From Candidatus Gastranaerophilales bacterium (GTDB taxonomy: Bacteria > Cyanobacteriota > Vampirovibrionia > Gastranaerophilales > Gastranaerophilaceae), in contig CALUSF010000006.1 of the NCBI GenBank assembly GCA_944323325.1, positions 1-33,671 of the forward strand: a stretch of DNA of 33,671 bases. The letters are read 5' to 3'. Within the stretch, counting starts at the first letter, position 1. Each line of letters opens with the position of its first letter. A program made the position numbers and the translations under genes. Under the pieces are notes generated by a model. That model did no database searches, was not told the origin of the DNA, and worked only from the letters and a program-made list of their open reading frames with translations. Of this stretch, positions 783 through 2,568 are shown one piece after another.

Positions 783-822
783 AAAAAGCACGCAGATTAT
801 ACCTCTTTTCTGCGTGCTTTTT
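783..822. terminator. Bidirectional rho-independent terminator
   Basis: The arms AAAAAGCACGCAG (783-795) and CTGCGTGCTTTTT (810-822) pair perfectly around a 14-nt loop, giving a stem with flanking A and T runs that works in both directions. It lies between convergent genes. The right arm is inside the last codons of the minus-strand gene, whose stop is at 797-799, so one hairpin serves both. Confidence 0.85.
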
Positions 823-2368
823 GCTGCGTAATTTTTGCATTCATCATAGGCAGAAGTATTCCGAGTGTAACAGCAGAATATACGATGCCGGCGGCATTTG
901 CCGTGTTTAATTTCCACATATTTTTCTTTGCAAATTCTTTTCCTTTTGAAGCAATTTCATTATGAGTTTTTAGACTTGTATTATTAAGCCAGTATTTGAT
1001 GTTTTTCAACATTCCTCCGCCCGCAAGCCCGTAAGTTTTTTCCGGCACAGCACCGGGTTTACCGTCAGGAGTTATAACAGCAGGCAAACTTTTTGAATAA
1101 TTAAATAGACTATTACCTTTCCTATCCAGAAGATTAGCAACACCTTTTGCGGCAAAACCTCCGAACACAAGCCAATTAAGGAATCCCAAATAATCCCTTG
1201 TCATAGATTCTCTTAATTCGGTTCCGTTATCAGCTGCCATAAATCGGCCGATAATCGTAGAGGCGTATACAGTCTTTATAGCGTTTCCGTCCGTTATCGG
1301 GCCGGAAAATTCTAATTTTTTTGCAAATTCTCTAAAATTTTTAACACGCATTACACTAAACACCATGCCGGCCATAAGTAAACTCGCACCAAGCTTTTTT
1401 GCAAATAAAAATTTATCTTTTTTCTGAACTTTTTGTGCAGAATCTGTATAATCCGTATCCCCTACAAATCCTTTTTTGCCGGTTCTTTTCTCGGTAATTT
1501 TTCTGTTGATGTACTGGTTTGTAAGTCCCAGTGCGCAAGCTGCCGCTATGGCTCCGAATGTTTTTATTTTATTTACCTTCTGTATTTTTTTTATTGCAAG
1601 TTCCACACTTTTGGGATTATTTTGAGAAAAAATATCCTTACCCATATCGTGAACATCTCTCAAAATGTTTTCCAATTTTGTCTCAAGCCTTTTACCGTTA
1701 ATATTCAATTCTATATTTCTCTCAGCACCGAGTGCGTTCACAATTCTTTTTTCCATTATTGAAAGAACATTCTTTTTATCAGATTCGGCAAGGTTTTTAT
1801 CGTTAATAAGCCCGGTCATTACTGATGAAAAACCATCTTTGGTTTTAAGTCTTTCCTGTATATTTTTATATTCGCTATTTTGCCAGTTTATTTTATCCCA
1901 CGCTGCTTCATCAGTCCAATTAACATTTTTCCAGCTAATGCGTTTAAATTCATTTGTATTATGTCCGTCTTGCCCCGAAAGATTTTCAAAAACCGTATCA
2001 ACAAAATTTTTCGTATCTCCCTTCCAGGCAGAATGCAAAATATCAAGTGACTCATCCGTATACCAACTTTTGGGATTAATTTTAATATCAGGCATAACCC
2101 TTTTTGATGCTATTTTAGAAATAACCTGCGCAAAAATTCCCGCAGAAAGACAGTTGATAAATGTTCCGCTGATTTCTCTAAAAAATGTCTCTGCTCCCGC
2201 GTATTCGTTTCTGTGCTTTGTATCATAATACGTTCTGGGCAAAACCATCGCTCCGACATCTAAACCCACCGCATTAACAGTTTCATTCATGTCGCATGTC
2301 CTAAAGAATCTTGTTACCATTCCGTCTAATGGCCCCTTAAAATTGATACCGCTATTGTTAATTTTCAT
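797..2368 (-). CDS. Unrecognised membrane protein with N-terminal INFKG tag
   Basis: A 523-residue protein I cannot assign to a family. It opens M-K-I-N-N-S-G-I-N-F-K-G, a short tag echoed in the proteins at 13557 and 12972. The body is mostly polar and lysine-rich, with hydrophobic stretches that could be membrane segments: one near residue 275 (F-G-A-I-A-A-A-C-A-L-G-L), one near 330 (L-L-M-A-G-M-V-F-S-V-M) and one near the C-terminus (A-G-I-V-Y-S-A-V-T-L-G-I-L-L-P). There is no signal peptide. The reading frame opens at a TTG (2383), but GAGAAAGGAC sits where a Shine-Dalgarno for the ATG at 2368 should be and overlaps that TTG, so 2368 is preferred. Expression is probably controlled by the leader at 2392-2532. 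Function unknown. Confidence 0.75.
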   Translation of the reverse strand: MKINNSGINFKGPLDGMVTRFFRTCDMNETVNAVGLDVGAMVLPRTYYDTKHRNEYAGAETFFREISGTFINCLSAGIFAQVISKIASKRVMPDIKINPKSWYTDESLDILHSAWKGDTKNFVDTVFENLSGQDGHNTNEFKRISWKNVNWTDEAAWDKINWQNSEYKNIQERLKTKDGFSSVMTGLINDKNLAESDKKNVLSIMEKRIVNALGAERNIELNINGKRLETKLENILRDVHDMGKDIFSQNNPKSVELAIKKIQKVNKIKTFGAIAAACALGLTNQYINRKITEKRTGKKGFVGDTDYTDSAQKVQKKDKFLFAKKLGASLLMAGMVFSVMRVKNFREFAKKLEFSGPITDGNAIKTVYASTIIGRFMAADNGTELRESMTRDYLGFLNWLVFGGFAAKGVANLLDRKGNSLFNYSKSLPAVITPDGKPGAVPEKTYGLAGGGMLKNIKYWLNNTSLKTHNEIASKGKEFAKKNMWKLNTANAAGIVYSAVTLGILLPMMNAKITQQKARRKEV

Positions 2369-2391: not shown

Positions 2392-2425
2392 AAAAAAAGT
2401 CCCGTTTATAACTTATAAACGAGAC
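2392..2425 (-). terminator. Intrinsic terminator inside the 5' leader
   Basis: The arms GTCTCGTTTATAA and TTATAAACGGGAC (minus strand, 2425-2399) form a stem with one G-U pair, followed by seven T (2398-2392). It lies between a strong promoter and the ATG at 2368, so it should stop most transcripts before the gene unless it is disrupted. Confidence 0.75.
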
Positions 2426-2532
2426 CTTTTAATTTTATACCTGCTTTATCAATTGCACATCAAAAATCACCTAAGTCTCGTTCGAAACCCGGATGATGAG
2501 GTTGATGAATTGTTAAAAAATAATTTTTGCAT
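2392..2532 (-). promoter_or_regulatory. Structured leader with terminator and competing antiterminator (riboswitch or attenuator candidate)
   Basis: Read on the minus strand, transcription from the promoter at 2539-2568 should start near 2532. Three elements follow. First, an outer stem AUCAaCCU (2506-2499) with AGGUGAU (2472-2466) encloses a hairpin GGGUUUC-GAAC-GAGACUU (2490-2473). Second, AACGAGAC (2482-2475), most of which is locked in that hairpin, is perfectly complementary to GUCUCGUU (2425-2418). Third, GUCUCGUU is also the 5' arm of a terminator hairpin (2425-2399) followed by seven U (2398-2392). The ATG of the downstream gene is 24 nt further on. Mutually exclusive pairing of this kind is typical of transcription attenuators and riboswitches. 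It does not match a class I know. It could instead be a free-standing small RNA ending at the terminator. Confidence 0.55.
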
Positions 2533-2538
2533 ATAAGC

Positions 2539-2568
2539 AGTATACAACTTTTTTTCAAAACTTGTCAA
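2539..2568 (-). promoter_or_regulatory. Strong sigma-70-type promoter for the leader and gene at 797-2368
   Basis: On the minus strand, TTGACA (2568-2563) is a perfect -35 box, then 18 bp, then TATACT (2544-2539) as -10. Predicted start of transcription is near 2532. Confidence 0.7.

Follow-up and report, generated by a model that had tools for sequence, protein, structure and literature searches.

A probable serine-responsive transcription attenuator precedes an orphan membrane protein gene in the Gastranaerophilales and has cysteine and histidine counterparts

Results

A structured leader containing a serine-rich reading frame

The whole stretch of DNA analysed here, which we call the window, spans 33,671 nucleotides of a Candidatus Gastranaerophilales genome. 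On its minus strand lies a gene for a 523-residue protein, preceded by a promoter, a short upstream open reading frame (uORF) and a set of competing RNA arms:

2539–2568, minus strand: sigma-70-type promoter, TTGACA-18-TATACT, with 11/12 consensus matches; the same promoter is found in nearly all relatives
2467–2532, minus strand: leader uORF MQKLFFNNSSTSSSGFRTRLR, 21 codons, stop codon TGA at 2469–2467; read from the sequence and conserved in relatives
2491–2508, minus strand: candidate regulatory codons TCA TCA ACC TCA TCA TCC (Ser Ser Thr Ser Ser Ser), directly 5' of arm 1
2484–2490, minus strand: arm 1, GGGTTTC, which pairs with arm 2 (folding, conservation)
2473–2483, minus strand: arm 2, GAACGAGACTT, of which the GAGACTT part pairs with arm 1 or, alternatively, the whole arm with arm 3
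2454–2465, minus strand: conserved TTTTGATGTGCA element 3' of hairpin 1:2, kept in most same-genus leaders
2418–2428, minus strand: arm 3, AGGTCTCGTTT, forming the terminator's 5' side or, with arm 2, the antiterminator
2392–2430, minus strand: intrinsic terminator formed by arms 3:4 (RNA folding, conservation), with a hairpin at about 2430–2396 and a U-run at 2398–2392
797–2368, minus strand: orphan membrane protein gene, 523 aa, specific to the Gastranaerophilales as far as seen

An earlier note on this DNA had described a strong minus-strand promoter, an intrinsic terminator shortly 5' of the ATG, and an 8-nt segment, AACGAGAC (2482–2475), able to pair either inside an upstream hairpin or with the 5' arm of the terminator. 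All of this holds up on closer analysis, the two partners of the segment being arm 1 (GGGTTTC) and GTCTCGTT in the 5' arm of the terminator. The terminator sits between the uORF and the gene and ends about 23 nt before the gene's ATG (2368), the predicted short transcript ending there is ~140 nt long, and the alternative helix 2:3 comprises 11 bp (GAACGAGACTT/AGGTCTCGTTT). The leader has a folding energy of -38.1 kcal/mol (z = -5.0), equalled by none of 200 shuffles. A simple terminator scan gave no entry for the leader terminator; RNA folding shows its hairpin clearly. At gathering cut-offs, no Rfam family (T-box included) matched the leader, the sole match in the window being a tRNA elsewhere.

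The uORF that begins with the ATG at 2532 was missed in the earlier note. Its Ser run is broken by one Thr codon, and among 607 short open reading frames of the window it alone has at least five Ser in six residues. Across 64 Ser leaders, TCN codons, mostly TCC and TCA, make up 99% of the Ser codons in the runs (342 of 346), as against 361 of 524 Ser codons in the genes of the window. Serine starvation in Bacillus subtilis slows ribosomes at UCN and not at AGY codons (PMC3862929).

Judging from promoter spacing, the window uORF is probably leaderless: 6 nt separate the -10 box from its ATG on the minus strand, and transcription would start at or adjacent to that ATG. Where the -10 box lies 6–9 nt from the ATG, no Shine-Dalgarno-like site was found, and where it lies at least 14 nt away nearly all leaders have one. 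Since the short-spacing leaders have no room for a Shine-Dalgarno site, the weight of the argument for leaderless initiation falls on the long-spacing ones.

The reading frame and all three helices are conserved

Relatives of the leader in public genomes come from rumen and gut Candidatus Gastranaerophilales. In a first set from the same genus, a Ser-rich uORF lies at the same place in 19 of 19 genes, the window's own included. A covariance model of the leader gave a strong match in 35 of the 65 genomes of the genus, with a single match per genome, and every one of these 35 has both the Ser-rich uORF and an orthologous gene downstream. Among the 35 are 16 that were kept out of model building, and other genera of the order contribute 35 further Ser leaders of the same kind. 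Weak covariance matches in the genus (L073–L076) proved to be ordinary terminators, unaccompanied by any uORF rich in Ser or Cys, and were rejected, and a loose pattern, ATGN{12,40}TCHTCHTCHTCH, applied to 12 genomes, lacked specificity and was dropped.

All three helices are conserved. Helix 3:4 pairs in 96% of the cells of a 19-row alignment, helix 2:3 in 91% and helix 1:2 in 81%; when the columns are slid by 1–3, pairing of helix 2:3 falls to 27–61%. Helix 2:3 has 12 cells altered on both sides in this alignment compared with 4.6 in shuffles, and compensatory changes are present in helices 2:3 and 3:4. Support for helix 1:2 is weaker because its variation is mostly one-sided. The competing pairings put forward in the earlier note are thus found, with compensatory changes, in homologous leaders. 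Within the uORF, the Ser run varies in length by whole codons, from 5 to 10, with synonymous UCA and UCC, and it is kept while the C-terminus of the peptide varies among relatives (SGLE, SGLW, SRLR, DLRDFDL and others).

Cysteine and histidine versions occur in relatives

Poly-Cys uORFs, for example MKNSFVNNLICCCCKSCC, combined with unchanged downstream wiring, are found at paralogues and orthologues both within the genus and outside it, and a model of the Cys leader found a match in 33 of the 286 genomes of the order. Three Cys loci precede genes other than that for the membrane protein, and these belong to cysteine synthesis, in line with the usual, though not strictly defining, link of amino-acid attenuators to the metabolism of the amino acid they sense. 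At one (L133) the next gene encodes a cystathionine gamma-lyase/synthase homologue and is followed by a CysK-like gene; at another (L132) a methyltransferase gene comes next and then a lyase of the L133 kind; at the third (L192) such a lyase comes next. Identification of the L132 and L192 lyases relies on close similarity to the L133 lyase alone.

Running the Ser model across the order also brought up poly-His uORFs (KHHHTHH and similar) before a second membrane protein family. hhalign gave no support for homology between the two families (probability 19%). The window's own genome (G000) has a poly-His uORF, MTYLSTKHHHTHRDPKGPGVLLLI, at locus L194 on contig C121, upstream of a plus-strand gene at 1469–2710. 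This gene belongs to the second family, which is likewise order-specific, and where the upstream region is intact, nearly all relatives in the genus have a poly-His uORF too.

The gene hisG is absent from 20 of 20 tested genomes of the genus and present in 12 from other families. Its absence from the tested genomes makes histidine a probable required nutrient for the genus. Both of the examined His-family homologues from hisG-bearing genera are without a His leader. A different conserved uORF (MINTRRITQANRKLVRIANLIWGL, MKNSRSKTQVNAKQIRVANLLWGL), possibly encoding an arrest peptide, lies upstream of the homologue of the His-type gene at two loci (L221 and L222) from another family of the order.

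Proteins behind the leaders are poor in the leader's amino acid

Enzymes of amino-acid biosynthesis have been found to be poor in their cognate amino acid (PMC4209129). Here, proteins behind Ser leaders contain 4.4% Ser and 0.61% Cys, against 7.4% Ser and 0.09% Cys in their homologues behind Cys leaders. Entirely Cys-free proteins make up 21 of 34 in the Cys-leader group and none of 79 in the Ser-leader group, and a residue-by-residue comparison with the Cys group shows the Ser group to be most strongly depleted in Ser and most strongly enriched in Cys. Proteins behind His leaders contain 0.09% His, with 24 of 34 free of it. AGY codons supply 38% of Ser codons in Ser-type genes versus 22% in Cys-type genes.

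The Ser and Cys contrasts persist once close copies are taken out (p about 1e-6 and 3e-4, from tests that ignore relatedness). On the tree, two gains or losses suffice to explain the Ser label, so the composition contrast represents few independent events. The one recent switch (L072) shows no shift in composition. The window protein itself contains 5.5% Ser, compared with 5.8% in its neighbours, and depletion therefore characterises the group more than it does the window protein.

Proposed mechanism and folding test

We conclude that the leader very probably acts as a ribosome-mediated transcription attenuator, responding to serine by sensing its charged tRNA. The mechanism is drawn from sequence comparison, that is, from the uORF, its Ser codons, the co-varying helices, the amino-acid swap and the scarcity of the sensed residue in the regulated proteins; from these we infer translation of the uORF, pausing, stalling and a response to serine starvation. 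A ribosome would initiate on the leaderless uORF soon after transcription starts. With seryl-tRNA plentiful, it would reach the stop codon and mask arm 2, allowing terminator 3:4 to form and transcription to stop near 2392; with no translation, helix 1:2 would form first, again leading to terminator 3:4. When seryl-tRNA is scarce, the ribosome would stall in the UCA/UCC run and mask arm 1. Helix 2:3 would then form and block the terminator, and the membrane-protein gene would be transcribed.

In a computational ribosome test, the RNA was truncated 5' of arm 4, the bases covered by the ribosome were forced to be unpaired, and the probability that arm 3 is captured was calculated. For the Ser leaders (n=62), mean capture was 0.98 with the ribosome stalled at the best Ser codon, 0.40 with it at the stop codon and 0.59 without a ribosome. 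The corresponding values were 0.99, 0.34 and 0.67 for Cys leaders (n=31) and 0.84, 0.27 and 0.68 for His leaders (n=11). In these models, the placement of the regulatory codons fits a stalled ribosome that masks arm 1 and a stop-codon ribosome that masks arm 2.

The window leader gave a weaker contrast than the average, with capture of 0.98–1.0 when stalled, 0.99 ribosome-free and 0.59 at the stop codon. Because it favours the antiterminator at equilibrium even when ribosome-free, termination must depend on the order of folding and requires co-transcriptional formation of helix 1:2, perhaps with help from a pause. The E. coli his leader has a pause at GAUGUGU. Most same-genus leaders have a TTTTGATGTG element 3' of hairpin 1:2, and Cys leaders and several His leaders have something similar there; the TTTTGATGTGCA element of the window, placed where a pause would be expected, is a possible RNA polymerase pause signal.

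Alternative explanations

The earlier note had called the arrangement the wiring of a riboswitch or attenuator, matched the upstream fold to no known class, and regarded both signal and output as open. The strong fold and mutually exclusive hairpins would indeed suit a metabolite-binding riboswitch, in which a small molecule bound by the upstream fold sets the availability of arm 2. However, the leader has no Rfam match, the region 5' of arm 1 is conserved as codons, with whole-codon length changes and synonymous UCA/UCC, Cys or His codons replace the Ser run in relatives with the same downstream wiring, and the pairings that are conserved are the three attenuator arms. We give such a riboswitch almost no weight, and rejected a conserved ligand-binding fold because what is conserved upstream is a reading frame, with a different amino acid in different relatives. 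Of the earlier proposal, the attenuator half is retained and the riboswitch half discarded. The fold does lack an Rfam class, but what senses is a uORF of Ser codons and not a new ligand-binding structure. The signal can now be named from the Ser codons, and from Cys and His in relatives, while the output is still an orphan membrane protein.

An attenuator built on the same uORF could also respond to an antibiotic or a nascent-peptide arrest motif instead of serine shortage, and its general wiring would be identical. The window peptide ends in RTRLR, which resembles +X+ motifs known from macrolide-dependent arrest. Conservation, however, lies in the Ser run and not in the C-terminus, and the Cys and His versions, the codon choice and the product composition all point to tRNA charging, leaving arrest only a slim chance. 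That the leader is a plain terminator with chance pairings, limiting read-through without regulation or making a short RNA, would account for the terminator and the predicted transcript of ~140 nt, but neither a conserved helix 2:3 with compensatory changes nor a conserved Ser-rich uORF would be expected from it, and we find it hardly credible. Charged serine tRNA remains the signal that we favour.

The regulated protein

The 523-residue protein has a few hydrophobic segments, solely on account of which it is called a membrane protein, and a mostly helical AlphaFold model (mean pLDDT 84). Pfam and NCBIfam searches with it found nothing significant, and comparison of the model with the PDB gave no fold match (best E-value 0.12, TM-scores around 0.1). 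Both in the window and in many relatives, the next gene downstream has the opposite orientation, and control by the attenuator is therefore probably confined to the membrane-protein gene. It is a plausible guess that the product aids survival of serine shortage through uptake or salvage. We found no serine-synthesis genes under Ser leaders, and no association between presence of the Ser-leader gene and loss of full-length serA among 20 genomes compared.

Convergent to the regulated gene, the plus strand of the window encodes at 393–767 a small protein that has Cys-rich repeats (CTCGCRQG...) and an N-terminus resembling a signal sequence; it may bind metal. Two public records carrying the order-specific gene, titled uncultured Acinetobacter (L249) and uncultured Brachyspira (L256), are probably mislabelled metagenome bins.

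Discussion

The mechanism proposed here is already known; what is unusual is the sensed amino acid, the targets, and the series of Ser, Cys and His leaders across one order. In a literature search that took in few subscription papers, neither a serine attenuator nor any attenuator from the Gastranaerophilales was described, which is weak evidence of novelty. As a broader but tentative proposal, one that could well be wrong, modular attenuators, each with its own leader amino acid (Ser, Cys and His so far), may switch on order-specific membrane proteins when that amino acid is scarce; these proteins would have shed much or all of the sensed residue and form a new class devoted to its acquisition or salvage. 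In support of such a modular set, the genus with the His-leader family lacks hisG (20 genomes tested) and the two homologues examined from hisG-bearing genera have no His leader. Through the present case an uncultured gut lineage gains a readable starvation response, and orphan membrane proteins an assigned signal. The leaders also provide a natural experiment, in which the same RNA wiring swaps between Ser and Cys sensing and the controlled proteins differ in composition to match, and the function of two orphan membrane families becomes testable.

Comparison with known systems

Two known observations bear on parts of this arrangement. Serine shortage is also read through slow UCN decoding at B. 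subtilis sinR (PMC3862929), where there is no leader peptide or RNA switch; here the UCN codons lie within an attenuator. Like the enzymes with low cognate bias (PMC4209129), the proteins described here would be made in shortage and are poor in the scarce amino acid, but they are orphan membrane proteins matched to the amino acid of their leader.

As for the switch itself, polycysteine-encoding leaderless uORFs of mycobacteria reportedly attenuate a downstream gene (the work of Canestrari et al. 2020, listed in PMC13236596). They share with the present leaders the leaderless start and the run of one amino acid, and differ in that here the run consists of Ser in the window's leader and of Cys or His in related ones, is coupled to an intrinsic terminator and antiterminator, and occurs in another phylum. 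There is likewise a close likeness to the ribosome-mediated amino-acid attenuators of the trp/his type (PMC1183508), with which the leader shares a short reading frame with regulatory codons, arms pairing as 1:2, 2:3 and 3:4, a terminator before the gene and, possibly, a pause element after hairpin 1:2. Unlike them, it has Ser codons in an apparently leaderless uORF, and its target is an order-specific orphan membrane protein instead of a biosynthetic operon.
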